A stretch of 64,000 nucleotides of DNA. Source: Halorussus litoreus (lineage in GTDB: Archaea > Halobacteriota > Halobacteria > Halobacteriales > Haladaptataceae). Under the pieces are notes generated by a model. It ran no database searches, was not told where the DNA came from, and was given only the letters and a program-made list of their open reading frames with translations. Location: positions 1 to 64,000 of the forward strand of contig NZ_KZ859509.1 of assembly GCF_003382685.1 (NCBI RefSeq), in the 5' to 3' direction. Below, in pieces: positions 2,882-50,529 of this stretch (position 1 is its first letter; every line of letters starts with the position of its first letter). Both the position numbers and the translations under genes were made by a program.

Positions 2882-3502
2882 ATGGACGACGACGCGCCGG
2901 AGAACGCCTCGGACTCGATTCGGTATCAGGGAAAGGCGGTCGACGACGACGAGGAGATCGTCGCGTTCCTCGACGCTCAGCGGTCGGGCGTCCTCGGGTT
3001 GGCGGACGACGGGCAGCCCCACCTCGTCACGCAGCTGTTCGTCTACGACGACGAGGACGGCGCGATATACCTCCACGGCGCGCAGGCGGGCCGCGCGTAC
3101 GGCATCGTCGCGGACGGTGGTAGTGTGGACGGCGAGAGCGCTGGCGGTGACAATGATGACAGGGCCACAGTAGAGGCCTGCTTCACCACAAGCGAGATGG
3201 GCCGATTCATCCCCGCGGACGAACCCGTCAACTTCACCGTCGAGTACACCAGCGTCGTCGCCTATGGCGAGATCGGGCTGGTCGAGGACGCGGCGGCCAA
3301 GCGAGGCGTCCTCGAACGGTTCATGGCGAAGTTCGCGCCCCATTTGAGCGCGGGCCAGGACTACGAAGAGATGGCCGAGGAGTCCATCGACCGGACCGCG
3401 GTGTACCGACTCGACGTGGAGCGGTGGTCGGGCAAGCACGGCGAGAAAGCACCCGAGTACCCCGGCGCGTACGACCTCGACGAGGTTGCCGAGTCGGAGT
3501 GA
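2882..3502 (+). CDS. Pyridoxamine 5'-phosphate oxidase family (FMN-binding split barrel) protein
   Basis: 206 residues. The stretch IVAFLDAQRSGVLGLADDGQPHLV followed by LFVYDDEDGAIYLHGAQAGR is the characteristic first half of the split-barrel flavin-binding fold used by general stress proteins and PNPOx-like reductases. VNFTVEYTSVVAYGEIGLVED and the C-terminal Y-R-L-D-V-E-R-WSGK end also fit this family. An ATG nine bases upstream (2873) is an alternative start. A short acidic, Gly/Ser-rich loop around residues 80-95 (GGSVDGESAGGDNDD) is a haloarchaeal-style insertion. Substrate and cofactor cannot be assigned; heme- or F420-binding relatives exist. Confidence 0.85.
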   Translation: MDDDAPENASDSIRYQGKAVDDDEEIVAFLDAQRSGVLGLADDGQPHLVTQLFVYDDEDGAIYLHGAQAGRAYGIVADGGSVDGESAGGDNDDRATVEACFTTSEMGRFIPADEPVNFTVEYTSVVAYGEIGLVEDAAAKRGVLERFMAKFAPHLSAGQDYEEMAEESIDRTAVYRLDVERWSGKHGEKAPEYPGAYDLDEVAESE

Positions 3503-3788: not shown

Positions 3789-6620
3789 TCACCGCTCGCT
3801 GTTCCCGTCGTCGTCATCCAGCCGTTCCTGCCACTCCTGCGCGCGATTCAGTAACTCCACCGGCGCGGTTTCGCCGACCGAGAGCTCCGTGAGTTCTTCG
3901 AGCACCGCCTCCGCATCCTCGCCGAATCTGTCCCGGAGTTCTTCCGCGTCGGGTTCACCGGACTCCCCGTCGCGCTCCGCAGTATCCTCCCTGTCCGTCC
4001 GCAGTTCGCCGCTCCCAACGTCGAAGACCACCTGTTTCGTGCCGCCGGAACTCCCGCCCTTGGTCTCGATGGCCTCGTCGGCCCGGAGCTTCCCGAGCAC
4101 GTCGCGCGAGCGCTCGACGACCGGGTCCGGGACGCCCGCGAGGTCCGCAACGTGGATGCCGTACGAGCGGTCGGTCGGCCCGTCCTCGACGGTCCGGAGG
4201 AAGGTCACGTCGTCCGAGCGGGACTGCTCGGGTCGATGGGACTCCCCGTCGCTGGCTTCCGGTGGTTCGCCGTCGACCGCCACGTGGACGTTCTCCACGC
4301 GGTCGAGGTGGTCCGCGAGCGTCGTGAGTTCGTGGTAGTGGGTGGCAAAGAGAGTCGTGGCCCGAACCTCGTTGTGGAGGTACTCCGTCGCGGCCCACGC
4401 GATGGAGATGCCGTCGTACGTCGCGGTGCCCCGGCCCACCTCGTCTAAGATCACCAGCGACTCGTCGGTCGCCGAGTGGAGGATGTTGCTGAGTTCCTGC
4501 ATCTCGACCATGAAGGTCGAGCGGCCCTGCGCGAGTTCGTCGAGCGCGCCGACTCGGGTGTAGATGCCGTCCACGAGGCCGATCTCGGCCGCATCGGCCG
4601 GGACGAAGCTCCCGATCTGGCCGAGCAGAGTTATCAGCGCGGCCTGTCGCATATACGTCGACTTGCCCGACATGTTCGGTCCGGTGACCACGAGGAACCG
4701 CCGGTCCGGGCTCGTCCGGAGGTCGTTGGGCACGAACTCGGTGGTCTGCTCCACCACGGGGTGGCGACCGGCCTCGATGCGGAGGTCGCCCGACTCCCGG
4801 AGGTCAGGGCGGACCCAGTCGTTCTCGACCGCGTGGACCGCGAGGCTGGCGAGCGCATCGACCGTCGCGAGCGCGCGGCCCACCGACTGGAGGAGGTCGG
4901 CCCGCTCGGCGACTCGCTCGCGGAGGGCCGCGAACAGGTCGTACTCCAGTTCGCCGCGCCGTTCCTCCAAGCGCATGATCTCGCGCTCGCGCTCGTCCAA
5001 CTCGTCGGTGGTGTATCGCTCGGAGTTCTTCAGGCTCTTGAGCCGGTCGTAGCGGTCGGGCACCTTCTCCGTCTCGCTCTGGCCGACCTGGATGTAGTAG
5101 CCGTCGGTGCGGTTGCGGTCGACCTGCAGGTGGGTGATCCCCGTCTCGCGCTTCTCGCGGTCGGGCAGCGCGTCGAGCCACGACCGCACCTCCTCGTGGC
5201 GGTCGATGACCTCGTCGAGGTCGGCGTCGTAGCCGCGGGCGAACAGCCCGCCCTCGGTGACGGTCCCCGGCGGGTCGTCCGCGAGGCCGCCGAGCGACTC
5301 GCGGAGTCGCTCGGCGGCCTCGCGGTCGGGTCGGTCGAGAACGTCAGCGAGCGGTGAACTCGCGAGGGTGGGGTCCGAGGCCACGGCATCGGCGACCTCG
5401 GGGAGCAGAGCTAAGGTCTCCCGGACCCGCAGGAGGTCGCGGGCGTCCGCACTGCCGTGAGCGGCCTTGCTCGCCAACCGTTCGAGGTCGTACGCGCCGT
5501 CGAGAACGTCCCGGACCGTCTCGCGGGCGAGCGCCGCGTCCGCGAACGCCGCGACCGAGTCCGCGCGCTCGCGGAGGGTCGATAGGTCGCGCCGGGGGCG
5601 CTGGATCCACTCGCGCAGGCGGCGCTTGCCGGGACTCGTCGCGGTGTGGTCGATGGTCGAGAACAGCGACCCATCGCTGTCGCCCTGCATCGTCTCGGTG
5701 AGTTCGAGGTTGCGCTGGGTCGTGGCGTCGAGCCGCACGTGGTCGTCGCCCGCGAAGGTCTGGAGGCGCGTCATCGACGACGTGACGCCGGTGCCGGTCT
5801 CCTCGACGTACGAGAGCAGCGCACCAGCGGCCTGCACCTCGGGGTTCTCCCCTCGCTCACCGTCGAGGCCGAGGCTGTCCAGCGTCTCCGCGCCGAACTG
5901 GGCCGTCGTCTCGTGGGTCGCCCGGCCGGGCGCGAACGCCTCCGCGCGGTGGAGCGTCAGCGTGGCGTCGGTGCGCTCGCGGACCGCTTCGAGGAAGGCG
6001 TCGTCGTTGCGGATCTCCGGACCGGGCAGCACCTCGACGGGGTCGAACCGGTAGAGTTCCGTGAGCGCGCGGTCGGTGGCGACGTCGGCGGGGTCGATGG
6101 CGGCGTCGTCCCGGTCGGTGGCAGCATCGGCGCGGTCGTCGGCTCCACCCGCGTCCTCGCCGGTGGCGTCCGTGACGAGAAAGCGCCCGGTCGTCACGTC
6201 GGCGAACGCGAGGCCGTAGCGGTCCGGCGCGGCCCGGACCACCGCGACGAGATAGCGAGCGTCGGCGTCGCTGGTTTCGAGCAGCGTGCCGGGCGACACG
6301 ACCTGCGTGATCTCGCGGGCGTGGCCGTCGTCGGTCTCGTGCTGGTCGGCGACCGCGACGCGGTAGCCGCGCTCGACCAGCCCCTTGAGGTGCGGGGTGA
6401 GCTTGTCCACAGGGACGCCGGCCATCGGGTAGCTGGAGCCGTGCGAGGACTTCTCCGAGACCTTGAGGTCGAGCAGGTCAGCGACCGTCTCGGCGTCCTC
6501 GCCGAAGAACTCGTAGAAGTCCCCGACCTGCATCACGAGGAAGTCGGCGTCTGTCTCGGCCTTCAGGTCGAAGAACTCGCCGACGATACCGCCCACGTCA
6601 GACTCGGGCAAGCGGGTCAC
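3789..6620 (-). CDS. mutS: DNA mismatch repair protein MutS
   Basis: 943-residue MutS that binds DNA mismatches and signals through ATP. The mismatch-reading motif GDFYEFF sits at residues 33-39. The connector and lever domains follow, and the ATPase has Walker A GPNMSGKST at 647, then the Walker B region ESLVILDEVGRGTATYDG and the FATHYHELT switch. The GTG at 6620 is the only in-frame start giving a normal N-terminus. Asp/Ala-rich insertions (around residues 155-190 and near the C-terminus) are acidic loops typical of halophiles. With mutL 2.6 kb further along the same strand this forms a mismatch-repair locus. Confidence 0.97.
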   Translation of the reverse strand: MTRLPESDVGGIVGEFFDLKAETDADFLVMQVGDFYEFFGEDAETVADLLDLKVSEKSSHGSSYPMAGVPVDKLTPHLKGLVERGYRVAVADQHETDDGHAREITQVVSPGTLLETSDADARYLVAVVRAAPDRYGLAFADVTTGRFLVTDATGEDAGGADDRADAATDRDDAAIDPADVATDRALTELYRFDPVEVLPGPEIRNDDAFLEAVRERTDATLTLHRAEAFAPGRATHETTAQFGAETLDSLGLDGERGENPEVQAAGALLSYVEETGTGVTSSMTRLQTFAGDDHVRLDATTQRNLELTETMQGDSDGSLFSTIDHTATSPGKRRLREWIQRPRRDLSTLRERADSVAAFADAALARETVRDVLDGAYDLERLASKAAHGSADARDLLRVRETLALLPEVADAVASDPTLASSPLADVLDRPDREAAERLRESLGGLADDPPGTVTEGGLFARGYDADLDEVIDRHEEVRSWLDALPDREKRETGITHLQVDRNRTDGYYIQVGQSETEKVPDRYDRLKSLKNSERYTTDELDEREREIMRLEERRGELEYDLFAALRERVAERADLLQSVGRALATVDALASLAVHAVENDWVRPDLRESGDLRIEAGRHPVVEQTTEFVPNDLRTSPDRRFLVVTGPNMSGKSTYMRQAALITLLGQIGSFVPADAAEIGLVDGIYTRVGALDELAQGRSTFMVEMQELSNILHSATDESLVILDEVGRGTATYDGISIAWAATEYLHNEVRATTLFATHYHELTTLADHLDRVENVHVAVDGEPPEASDGESHRPEQSRSDDVTFLRTVEDGPTDRSYGIHVADLAGVPDPVVERSRDVLGKLRADEAIETKGGSSGGTKQVVFDVGSGELRTDREDTAERDGESGEPDAEELRDRFGEDAEAVLEELTELSVGETAPVELLNRAQEWQERLDDDDGNSER

Positions 6621-6818: not shown

Positions 6819-7132
6819 GCGCGCGCGAGCAACGCGCGCGAGGGACGAGAAGCGCAACGACCGGAGGGAGTGAGCATCGCAGGAGGCTGGGGAGGTGTGA
6901 GGCTCGCGGTCGCGGTTGCGGTTCTCATATGTCGAGGCAGTAGCTAGCTTCATCGAAACCAAATCGAAGACCGGAAGCTCAGTGAAGCTAGCTACTTCCG
7001 AGGCATAGGAGAGACCGCACCTCGTCCCCCAACCGCTTGCGTTGCTCGGTCTCCGTTTCACTCCGACCTGCGCTACTCAGCCCTCGCGCGTTTTGGCGCG
7101 ACACGGAGGTCGCGCCAGCACGCGCCGGGCGG
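6819..7132. repeat. Long imperfect inverted-repeat element, copy A (full)
   Basis: About 314 bp. The left end reads GCGCGCGAGCAACGCGCG and the right end CGCGCCAGCACGCGCCGGGC. Near the centre, AGTAGCTAGCTTC (6939-6951) is exactly inverted at 6984-6996. Outward from this core the two arms keep partial complementarity: GGGGAGGTGTGAGG on the left against CCGCACCTCGTCCCCC on the right, and CGCGCGAGGG on the left against CCCTCGCGCG on the right. A transcript would fold into one long hairpin. No coding sequence is evident. Related sequences occur at 16.9, 43.5, 46.0 and 50.2 kb. Confidence 0.8.
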
Positions 7133-7232: not shown

Positions 7233-8000
7233 TTACTTGTGCGGTGGTCGCGAAACGTCCCGACGCTCCACCGCCGCGAGCAGGTCCGCCAGCGACTCGG
7301 CGGCCAACTCCAGCAGTTCCTCGCCGAGCGCCGCGTCCCCGTCCGTGGGGTCGCCAACCACGCCGTTCTCCGTGAACTCCGCCGAGTCGAACGCCAGATT
7401 CGCGTAGCTGACCCACTCGCCCCAGCCCTCGCTCGCCCCCTCCCGCGCTTCCTCCACGCGGTCCTCGCGGACGAGGTCGGGCGCGACGTGGCGCAGCAGC
7501 GCGGTTTCGAGCGGGCCGCCGTGGCCCATCTCGTCGCTGTACTCGCCAACGGCCTCGAACCACGTGAACGGGACCGCGTAGGCCGCGTCTTCGCGGGTGA
7601 TGGTACCCGCAACCTCCCGGAGCGCGCTCACGTTCCCGCCGTGACCGTTCACCAGCACCACGCGATCCCAGCCGTGGTGCGCGAGGCTGGCGACCGTCTC
7701 GCGGACGTAATCCCGGAACGTGTCCTCGCTCACCCACAGCGTCCCCGTGAACTGGCGGTGCTCGGCGGCCACGCCGACGGGAATCGGCGGCGCGACGACT
7801 ACCGCTTGGTCGTCCGTCTCGCTCCCGTCCGACTCGCGCTCGTAGACCTCGGCACCCGCCTCCGCGACCGCCTCGGCGGTGATCGCGTCGGTCCCCAACG
7901 GTGCGTGCGGCCCGTGCTGTTCGGTGCTGCCCACTGGCAGAATCGCGAGGTCGGTCGCGGCCGCGTCGGCGTCGGTCCACGTGGCGTCCGAGAGGTGCAT
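7233..8000 (-). CDS. Creatininase-family amidohydrolase (possible ArfB-type deformylase)
   Basis: 255 residues. The metal-binding signature of the creatininase family is plain: GSTEQHGPHAPLGTD near residue 23, VLVNGHGGN near 115, and GGPLETAL later. Family members are dinuclear-metal amidohydrolases. In archaea one subgroup (ArfB) removes formate from FAPy nucleotides in riboflavin and F420 synthesis, and haloarchaea make both cofactors, so that role is plausible. No riboflavin gene adjoins it, so the substrate is inference. Start ATG at 8000. It is flanked by repeat element A on its 3' side and a membrane-protein gene upstream on the same strand. Confidence 0.85.
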   Translation of the reverse strand: MHLSDATWTDADAAATDLAILPVGSTEQHGPHAPLGTDAITAEAVAEAGAEVYERESDGSETDDQAVVVAPPIPVGVAAEHRQFTGTLWVSEDTFRDYVRETVASLAHHGWDRVVLVNGHGGNVSALREVAGTITREDAAYAVPFTWFEAVGEYSDEMGHGGPLETALLRHVAPDLVREDRVEEAREGASEGWGEWVSYANLAFDSAEFTENGVVGDPTDGDAALGEELLELAAESLADLLAAVERRDVSRPPHK

Positions 8001-16943: not shown

Positions 16944-17021
16944 GGCGCGCGAGCAGCGCGCGCGAGGTCGCGCCCGCACGCCCCGGAGTAGAAATATCAC
17001 CCCAGCGCACGCTGAGGCGGA
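16944..17021. repeat. Internally deleted inverted-repeat element, copy D
   Basis: GCGCGCGAGCAGCGCGCG joined almost directly to a right-end-like CGCGCCCGCACGCCCCGG, then GAGTAGAAATATC and CCCAGCGCACGCTGAGGCGG. It matches the ends of the full element at 6819 and is very like copy E at 43535. It sits in the 500-bp gap between rnz and the DUF460 gene; the rest of that gap holds no convincing gene. Confidence 0.65.
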
Positions 17022-43534: not shown

Positions 43535-43632
43535 GGCGCGCGCGAGCAACGCGCGCGAGGGAACTGAGCGCAGGCTCGCCAAGACGCCAGCGCGCGCCGG
43601 CCAAGAGTAGAACCCAGCGCACGCCGGGCGGA
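43535..43632. repeat. Internally deleted inverted-repeat element, copy E
   Basis: GCGCGCGCGAGCAACGCGCG with GAGGGA (43537 on) is identical to the left end of the full copies. It passes quickly to right-end-like GCCAGCGCGCGCCGG (43586-43600) and GAGTAGAACCCAGCGCACGC with CGGGCGG. Very similar to copy D. It lies between the CBS gene and the convergent dihydroneopterin aldolase gene. Confidence 0.65.
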
Positions 43633-44935: not shown

Positions 44936-45802
44936 CTACTCGACCAGTCGCTCGATCTCCGTGACGAGGATGCCGCTCGCGCCGACCGACTGCAGCTCGT
45001 TTATCGTCTCGAACACGTCGCGCTCGTCGACGACCGCGTGGACCGCGACCATTCCCTCTTTCTCGCCGTTCGCGCCGCCCTCGACGTTCATCACGGTCGG
45101 GCCGCCGAGTCCCGGAATCACGTCCCGGACCTCGTCGAGGCGTTCCTCGGGCGCGTTCATCATCAGGTAACGCTTGCCGTCGGCCGACAGCACCGACCGG
45201 AGCGCCATCACGATCTGCTCGACCTTCGGCTCGTCGACCACGTCCTCGCGGGCGAACAGGTGGACCGAACTCGACAGCACCTCGTCCACGATCGCGAGTC
45301 GGTTGACCTTCAGGGTCGTCCCCGTGCTGGTGATGTCGATGATGGCGTCGGCCATCTCGACGTGCGGGGTCAGCTCGGTCGCGCCGCTGACCTCCACGAC
45401 GTCGACCTCGACGTCCTGCTCCGCGAAGTACCGCTCGGCGATGTGAGGGAATTCGGTCGCGACGGTCTTGCCCGCCACGTCCGCGACGCTCCGGATGTCG
45501 CCGTCCTCCGGTGCCGCGAGCACGAGGCGACACTGGCCGAACTCGAGGTCGAGCAGGTCCACGACGTTCCCGGGGTCGGCCTCCCGATGCTGGTCGAGAC
45601 CGGTGATGCCCACGTCGGCCGCGCCGTCGCTGACGTACTCGGGGATGTCGGCGGCGCGAGCGAACAGCAGCGTGACCTCGGGGTCGACCGTGTCGGCGTA
45701 CAGTTTTCGGTCCGCGCCATCCACGGCGTGCAGGCCCGCGCGTTCGAGCAGTTCCATCGACGGGTCGTGGAGTCGGCCTTTGTTCGGGACGGCGATCCTC
45801 AT
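44936..45802 (-). CDS. hisG: ATP phosphoribosyltransferase HisG (long form)
   Basis: 288 residues, first enzyme of histidine synthesis. [23 protein letters not shown], the phosphate loop [13 protein letters not shown], and a C-terminal regulatory domain of about 70 residues ([31 protein letters not shown]) identify the long, hexameric form that is inhibited by histidine without HisZ. It stands alone, downstream-convergent with aIF2-beta. Confidence 0.96.
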
Positions 45803-45980: not shown

Positions 45981-46152
45981 AGCAGTTAGCTACTGCTTGC
46001 GCCTCGGAGAGACCGCGACCGCACAACACCGCGACCGCGAGCCTCACGCCTCCCCAGCCGCCTCACTTCCTCACTGCGTTCGGTCGTTCGTCCCTCGCAC
46101 GCTAGGGCACGACGCGCGAACGCGTCGCGGCCAAACGCACGCCGGACGGTTA
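45981..46152. repeat. Inverted-repeat element, copy B (right half)
   Basis: Begins with GTTAGCTACTGC, near the element core, then GCCTCGGAGAGACCGCG, CCTCACGCCTCCCCAGCCGC, and ends in CGCACGCCGGACGGTTA, matching the right half of copy A. The left arm is absent or very diverged. The rest of the 640-bp gap (45803-46445) shows no gene. Confidence 0.65.
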
Positions 46153-49180: not shown

Positions 49181-50059
49181 ATGACATCGAAGAAATCGCT
49201 GCTCGCCGTGGCACTCGCGGGACTGCTCGTCCTGTCGAGCCTCGCGGCCGCGGACGTCGCACCGAGCGCAGCCATGGACGCAACTGGCAACGATCTGACG
49301 GTCGGCGTCGAGAACGTCGGCAACGACGGCGCGACGGTGACGGTGACGCAGAACGACACCGCGGTCGAGAACGCCTCGGTGACCGTGGCAACGACCGACG
49401 ACGAATCGTACGCGGGCACGGGCGAGTACGAGACCGGCGAGAACGGGACCGTCTCGCTCCCGGAACCGGAAGAGAACGTGAGCGTGGACGTTACGGCCGC
49501 GAAGGACAACGCCACCGGCTCCACGACCGCGACGATCACCGCCGCCGGTGACGGATCCGACGACGGCGACGACCCGGACGAGTCCGACGACGAGTCGTTC
49601 GGACAGATCGTCTCGTCGTACGTCCACGAGATGCTGAACGCGAGCGACGACGGCGGCCCCATCGGACAGGTCGTCTCGGAGTTCGTGACCGAGAACAACC
49701 CCGGTAACGCCGACGAGAACCGCCCGGACCACGCGGGCCAACCCGACGACGCCGGCCCCGACGAGGGTGACGACGCGGAGAACGAAACCGACGAGAACGA
49801 GACCGAGGAGGACGGCGAGCGCGGCCCGCCCGACCACGCGGGTAACGACGACAAGCACGACGACCACAAGCAGAAGAACGACCAAGAGGACGGCGACGAG
49901 ACGGACGACGAGGAGACCGACGATGAAGAGACCGAGCAGAGCGACGAAGAGGACGAAACCGAGGACGATTCGGACGACGAAGAAGATGACGAGGAGGACG
50001 ACGATGACGACGGATCGCAGGGTCCGCCGGACCACGCTGGCAACGGTAACGGCAACTGA
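49181..50059 (+). CDS. Secreted, extremely acidic protein with PPDHAGN repeats
   Basis: 292 residues. MTSKKSLLAVALAGLLVLSS and LAAADVA form a signal peptide. A beta-rich domain follows (NDLTVGVENVGNDGATVTVTQNDTAV to about 115), then helices DESFGQIVSSYVHEMLN and IGQVVSEFVTENN. The C-terminal half is Asp/Glu-rich with three PDHAG motifs (RPDHAGQPDDAG, GPPDHAGNDDKHDDH, GPPDHAGNGNGN). It may bind divalent cations or act in the cell envelope. No anchor is visible, so it is probably released. No known homologue that I can name. Confidence 0.75.
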   Translation: MTSKKSLLAVALAGLLVLSSLAAADVAPSAAMDATGNDLTVGVENVGNDGATVTVTQNDTAVENASVTVATTDDESYAGTGEYETGENGTVSLPEPEENVSVDVTAAKDNATGSTTATITAAGDGSDDGDDPDESDDESFGQIVSSYVHEMLNASDDGGPIGQVVSEFVTENNPGNADENRPDHAGQPDDAGPDEGDDAENETDENETEEDGERGPPDHAGNDDKHDDHKQKNDQEDGDETDDEETDDEETEQSDEEDETEDDSDDEEDDEEDDDDDGSQGPPDHAGNGNGN

Positions 50060-50174: not shown

Positions 50175-50529
50175 GGCGCGCGCGCGAGCAACGCGCGCGA
50201 GGGACGACCGAGCGCAGCGAGGGAGGAGGTTGGGGAGGTGTGAGGTTGCGGCGACTCCTATGTACCGGCAGAAGCTAGCTTCGTGATTCTTTGATTGACT
50301 GGTCGGGCTGAGCTAGCTACTGCCTCGACATATGGGAACCGCACAGCACCGCACCGCGACAGCCTCGTCCTCCCCAGCCGCCTGCGTTGCTCGGCCTCCG
50401 TTTCACTCCGGCCTACGCTACTCGACCCTCGCGCGATTTGGCGCGACACGAGGCACCGGCAGACAACCCGCGTCTGCCGAGCAGTCGGTCGCTCCGCTCC
50501 CGACAACCGCGCCAGCACGCGCCGGGTGG
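50175..50529. repeat. Long imperfect inverted-repeat element, copy C (full, with insertion)
   Basis: The left end GCGCGCGCGCGAGCAACGCG with CGAGGGACGA matches copy A. The core has AGAAGCTAGCTTC (from 50270) and GAGCTAGCTACTGCC (from 50310) as imperfect inverted arms; the right end is CGCGCCAGCACGCGCCGGGT. About 45 bp are extra near 50452-50505 compared with copy A. It occupies most of the 618-bp gap between the acidic-protein gene and ahcY; no gene seen in it. Confidence 0.8.

Follow-up and report, generated by a model that had tools for sequence, protein, structure and literature searches.

A candidate family of non-autonomous mobile elements with inverted arms in Halorussus and related Halobacteriales

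Element copies in the window and their anatomy

The window, the whole stretch of DNA that was analysed, is the first 64 kb of contig C9 of the Halorussus litoreus assembly (3.84 Mb in 75 contigs). It carries two full copies of a repeat (elements A and C), one half copy and two short forms. The repeat has an S end, which is a short hairpin, and an L end, which is a long hairpin followed by degenerate motifs. The features are as follows; the genes flanking element A were named by Pfam.

3789-6620, minus strand: mutS
6819-7132, plus strand: full element A, S end left and L end right, between mutS and the creatininase gene
6819-6839, plus strand: S-end hairpin of element A, GCGCGCGCGAGCAACGCGCGC, from the sequence
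6825-6930, plus strand: arm of element A, arm profile, 77.6 bits
6952-6983, plus strand: variable centre of element A, 32 nt, between AGCTAGCTTC (6942-6951) and GAAGCTAGCT (6984-6993)
7005-7095, minus strand: arm of element A, arm profile, 37.9 bits
7095-7116, plus strand: near-terminal hairpin of the L end of element A, GGCGCGAC-ACGGAG-GTCGCGCC, from the sequence
7233-8000, minus strand: creatininase gene
16944-17021, plus strand: short form, S end directly fused to L end, core gone, from the sequence
43535-43632, plus strand: short form, S end, short remnant and L-side motif array to about 43675, from the sequence
44936-45802, minus strand: hisG
45981-46152, minus strand: single L arm (half copy) upstream of hisG, 50.4 bits
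50175-50529, plus strand: full element C, S left and L right, between 49181-50059 (plus strand) and the S-adenosylhomocysteine hydrolase (SAHH) gene (50582/50678-51961, plus strand)
50184-50261 and 50331-50440: arms of element C, arm profile, 32.4 and 53.1 bits
50512-50531, plus strand: terminal copy of the L-side motif in element C, CCAGCACGCGCCGGGTGGAA, from the sequence and the array spacing

All five copies had been listed in an earlier note on this DNA and were found again by direct reading. The element ends extend a few bases beyond the limits given there (..CCCGG / CCGGGTGGAA). The arm profile scores A, C and the half copy at 32-78 bits, versus a best score of 4.3 bits in ten dinucleotide-preserving shuffles of the window. 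The two short forms have no arm body and are recognisable by their ends only. That at 43535-43632 gives an end-only profile match of 4.4 bits. The one at 16944-17021 has two L-side ~27-bp motifs beyond its junction, where CGAGG is common to both parent ends. The centre of element A is similar to the centres of two other copies.

A full copy consists of the S end, the L end with its motifs and a centre of ~30 nt bounded by AGCTAGCTTC/GAAGCTAGCT. The median size including 30-bp margins is 358 bp, and the gap between the arm-profile ends is 66-81 bp in most full copies. The two ends of one element differ in kind. They share a short CCGGCGCG/CGCGCCGG inversion and are asymmetric otherwise. Among 53 full copies, 34 are L-S, six are L-L and none is S-S; 13 have an end that the rule did not assign, and several of these look S-like. 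At two variable pairs of the L hairpin, 105 of 114 cases are Watson-Crick, compared with an expectation of 60.8 after shuffling and no more than 74 in any of 2000 shuffles; this covariation cannot separate DNA from RNA since the hairpin is local and palindromic, and G-T and A-C pairs are too few in this set to choose between the two. Beyond the L ends, degenerate copies of CCAGCGCGCGCCGGGTGGAA repeat, with most successive spacings at 25-29 bp. This spacing is seen in 44% of L flanks, 13% of S flanks and 13% of control intergenic DNA. Tandem repeats beside the S ends were also considered and were unconvincing (13% of S flanks vs 7% of control).

Some arms contain short tandem repeats or additional hairpins. 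Minisatellite-like expansions within arms, for example (GCGGTTGCGGGGCTGT)n and (CTGGGGAGGTTTGAGG)n, were observed at L198, L028, L205 and C6:40650-41420. The similarity of centres and that of arms, compared as a trace of whole-unit copying, are uncorrelated, and the copies are thus mosaics. Centres occur in both orientations. At L066, L060-L062 and L067, arms in other families are joined to different inner sequences, which suggests a family composed of exchangeable modules. Back-to-back arms, with their outer ends together, were seen in relatives (L260 1005-1328, L262 1007-1304, L267 2101-2425 and G005:C1:304837-305302); the sampled stretches of this genome contain none.

Distribution and syntenic sites

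A high copy number across the genome had been expected from the five copies, and it was borne out: CGCGCGAGGGACGA with at most one mismatch gives 154 matches versus 7 for the reversed control. The arm profile was trained on this genome and models one arm. It gives 157 matches in 650 kb of fetched stretches, and reversing this DNA leaves none. Most of the 650 kb was chosen for holding copies and is a biased sample, so density was taken from contigs read end to end (C5, C6 and C9), which have 38 arms in 422 kb. One relative has 10 arms in 400 kb. In the present genome, the stretch G000:C2:1-80000 has no arm versus about 7 expected at the C5/C6/C9 density, which may mean that C2 is another type of replicon or region. 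All 18 Halorussus genomes searched carry the family, which was found in 13 of the 30 genera represented among 79 genomes.

The sampled stretches hold 53 full copies with two facing arms and 51 single arms. The elements are intergenic. According to our own codon-based gene calls, 128 of the 22,860 bases in elements fall within genes, although 79% of the sample is coding, and the overlap exceeds 30 bp in one of 104 elements. By the same calls, outer ends face the 3' ends of genes 86 times and the 5' ends 70 times, and the inner ends of single arms do so 28 to 22, without an orientation bias in either case. A role as terminator or promoter was set aside for this lack of bias. No near-identical copies were found among those compared, and there is therefore no sign of recent activity. 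The phage records searched gave no match. Three exact pattern matches in viral contigs were set aside; profile scores there reach at most 13.2 bits, and the two matches inspected look like coding sequence. The family is undescribed in the open-access literature searched, and the sequence-string search returned unrelated papers among the matches listed.

Relatives differ in which syntenic sites are occupied. On the 5' side of hisG, where the half copy lies here, an arm is found in H. ruber and a possible remnant in H. salinisoli, and no arm in H. halobius, H. marinus, H. aquaticus and H. amylolyticus. The closest HisG matches in named genomes are from Halorussus species at 87-93% (the 93% match is a Halobacteriales MAG). 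On the 5' side of the SAHH gene, the site of element C, short element-free spacers are present in H. marinus, H. aquaticus and H. amylolyticus. On the 3' side of the creatininase gene, three relatives have profile matches and most are without; the sequence of a fourth relative (L172) reads like a heavily modified copy. DUF5791 has syntenic empty sites on both sides in relatives. No target-site duplication was found in the flanks and syntenic empty sites, where flanks are diverged and boundaries blurred. The divergence of the relatives (best 90% protein identity) prevents a reading of the exact insertion boundaries.

No transposon with these ends was found among the Y1, DDE_Tnp_1 and TnpB families searched. 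The Y1 transposase (IS605-type TnpA, PF01797) is absent from the assembly. Four DDE_Tnp_1 genes are all located on contig C17, with no arms nearby. TnpB has four loci, one of which has an arm within the 3.2-kb locus; this arm is part of the cupin-enclosing pair described below. At that place (L217, C11:49800-54800), about 100 bp separate the TnpB gene from the outer end of the pair.

Copies thus occur beyond the window, empty sites exist in relatives and the ends are conserved, and the grounds for doubt named in the earlier note did not materialise. Its reading of the copies as MITE-like mobile elements stands in part. It agrees with the genome- and genus-wide copies, the conserved ends and the syntenic empty sites. 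It does not agree with the asymmetry of the ends and with arms that are not selected to match, nor were a target-site duplication and a parent transposon found.

Arms around small genes

In at least eight cases, one small gene, mostly a core gene, sits between a pair of inner-facing arms, with the two arms about 480-1085 bp apart. Seven of the enclosed genes are those for a DUF7128 zinc-finger protein, JAB, DUF378, EthD, cytidine deaminase (cdd), DUF5791 and a cupin. The cupin-enclosing stretch has a possible second small gene, and the eighth pair encloses a tiny zinc-ribbon-like reading frame. There is no transposase among the enclosed genes. Equally close pairs of single arms in other orientations are absent within the sample. 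The gene-enclosing pairs, the L-end array and the flipped enclosed genes lie beyond what the earlier note could see.

All 18 species have DUF5791, cdd and JAB, and 17 have EthD. Beside these genes in other species, 41 of the 42 nearest arms face the gene and one faces away, in a count made by hand for four genes that were picked as enclosed here and whose shared descent makes the counts non-independent. Among the 18 species, the profile detects both DUF5791 arms in six, one in three and none in nine. The arm-free species include compact arrangements with unchanged neighbours. In a four-protein tree with weakly supported inner branches, the species bearing DUF5791 arms fall on one side, along with some arm-free species. 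A gene cassette that travels with its arms was set aside, since DUF5791 has the same neighbours whether arms are present or not. The uniform inner-facing orientation speaks against an independent insertion of both arms at each gene. Halorussus also has a second kind of palindromic repeat (GACTGAAAGGGGC...GGGGGCTTTC), seen at L277 1200-1500 and 1915-2200, L040 about 3230-3420, and L160. In L277, this repeat lies on both sides of DUF5791, replacing the arms.

The similarity between the two arms depends on their arrangement. In 17 gene-enclosing pairs, the two arms resemble each other more than arms of different loci do (65.7 vs 49.2, p = 5e-5), and five or six pairs with a strong match account for this difference. 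In 47 full copies, whose arms are about 75 bp apart, arms of the same element are less alike than the reference arms of different copies (42.3 vs 47.2, p = 1e-4; copies oriented by end type), and compensatory pairing between the long arms of a copy is not seen. This dissimilarity lies mostly in the inner 60 nt (p = 6e-4) and little in the outer part (p = 0.055). The arms had been called partly complementary; they are so loosely, and less than arms of different elements. Work outside archaea has shown that the closeness and similarity of inverted repeats raise instability (PMC10164571). By analogy, the mismatch of close arms would fit this rule, and it is as expected if near-perfect palindromes get lost.

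Some enclosed genes are flipped. DUF5791 shares the direction of its upstream neighbour in 14 species, whereas three (this genome, G001 and G016) have it inverted; since this genome (G000) and G001 are sisters, these may be two events. Both arms are present in this genome and G001, and one arm was detected in G016. The other case is JAB, which is turned around with respect to its neighbours in G006, a genome with both arms. Among the four genomes with an inversion, no inverted enclosed gene is without arms. The events are few and are suggestive of a link between the arms and inversion of the enclosed gene.

Interpretation and comparison with known systems

We explain the family as non-autonomous mobile elements with exchangeable centres, similar to fold-back elements or palindrome-associated transposable elements (PATEs), in Halorussus and related Halobacteriales, with a probability of roughly 55%. 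A transposase-free mobile element that is moved in trans is favoured because of the anatomy and the empty sites. A full copy would have two inverted arms, each about 100-150 bp long, and two unequal ends, S and L. The L-side ~20-bp motifs, repeated every 25-29 bp, are putative binding sites of a trans-acting protein. Between the AGCTAGCT motifs, the centre would be exchangeable, usually ~30 nt and sometimes a whole small gene. Copies would enter intergenic DNA and presumably spread by transposition. In their decay, loss of the core would give the short forms and loss of one arm the half forms. Close arms would persist mainly if mismatched, with near-perfect palindromes probably deleted. Arms separated by a gene would grow alike and may recombine, by which the enclosed gene would be flipped. 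Several points speak against this reading: the core genes hold their neighbours with and without arms, for which simple cassette transposition does not account; the diverged flanks gave no target-site duplication and the transposase families searched no parent transposon; near-identical copies are lacking; and the copies are mosaics.

A possible, though rather unlikely, alternative is that the copies are intergenic mosaic repeats that do not transpose. They would arise by local template switching and be spread or homogenised by gene conversion and interspecies gene transfer. The uncorrelated similarity of arms and centres, the centres in both orientations, the minisatellite expansion and inserted extra hairpins within arms, and the matched arms around genes are in line with this, as is the failure to find a transposase in the families searched and a target duplication in the diverged flanks. 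However, the conserved asymmetric ends, the tight inter-arm gap of 66-81 bp in most full copies, the hundreds of dispersed copies, and whole elements at occupied vs empty syntenic sites argue against it.

A further idea, which we regard as doubtful, is that the arms form a gene-enclosing inversion system. A small core gene already in place would acquire an arm on each side, and recombination between the two arms would turn the gene around with respect to the genes beside it. This would rely on host recombination, acting on arms that stay alike, or on a protein dedicated to the task that recognises the L-side motif array. It is unlikely that the arms are regulatory or insulating elements under selection at particular genes, such as transcription boundaries of small monocistronic genes. 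This would account for the inner-facing arms beside cdd, DUF5791, JAB and EthD in many species (the 41 of 42 outside this genome) and for the position of most arm-bearing species on one side of the tree at DUF5791; yet gene ends show no general orientation bias (86 vs 70; 28 to 22), many species lack arms at the same genes, and the four genes were chosen as enclosed here in species that share descent. Long hairpin RNA genes, another reading in the earlier note, are very improbable: the arms can pair in part and the L hairpin covaries strongly, but that hairpin is local and palindromic, same-element arms are less complementary than different-element arms (p = 1e-4), Rfam has no match to the element and there is no orientation bias to genes.

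If the mobile-element reading is true, the sampled chromosome-like contigs carry about one arm per 11 kb from a family without a description in the open-access literature searched. The close, mismatched arms and the separated, matched arms would be a natural test of the persistence of long palindromes in archaea, and the enclosed core genes one of gene-order change by inverted repeats. Annotators of haloarchaeal genomes would gain a repeat that can be masked, and a marker by which species differ.

Eukaryotic fold-back (FB) elements have long inverted arms, internal short repeats and a variable centre. Our family is likened to them by description only, for its inverted arms, internal repeats and variable centre; FB elements belong to another domain of life and have much longer arms. 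Prokaryotic MITEs (PMC10969869) resemble the family, which is transposase-free, in being short, gene-free, intergenic and multi-copy. Here, however, the ends are asymmetric, and no terminal inverted repeats of a known transposon were found among the families searched, nor a target duplication in the diverged flanks. MITE pairs that flank genes are known from Acinetobacter integrons (PMC10969869), whereas the enclosed genes here are resident core genes in their ancestral neighbourhood and not cargo. The small mobile repeats (SMRs) of Haloquadratum (PMC3119063) are also haloarchaeal and transposase-free. They make no target duplication, and none was found in the diverged flanks here; their mode of movement is undefined. 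Unlike the present elements, they are ~80-110 bp long and of high uniformity (over 95%), with prominent terminal inverted repeats.

PATEs were described in Haloquadratum walsbyi (PMC3119063). Like our family, they are haloarchaeal, transposase-free and multi-copy with near-terminal palindromes, which are here the S and L hairpins with a covarying L stem. Also shared are core-deleted forms with joined ends (here 16944-17021 and 43535-43632) and, in some PATE families, strongly divergent copies. PATEs show no target duplication, and none was found in the diverged flanks here. PATEs are tied to the ends of IS605-type transposons, whereas PF01797 finds no IS605-type TnpA in this assembly and the TnpB loci do not appear to share the ends of the family, since one of the four 3.2-kb loci has an arm, that of the cupin-enclosing pair. 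Two long inverted arms, an L-side motif array and gene enclosure are not in the PATE paper (PMC3119063). The closest described relatives of the family are the PATEs, and we describe it as working like a PATE or a fold-back element, without filing it as a member of either.
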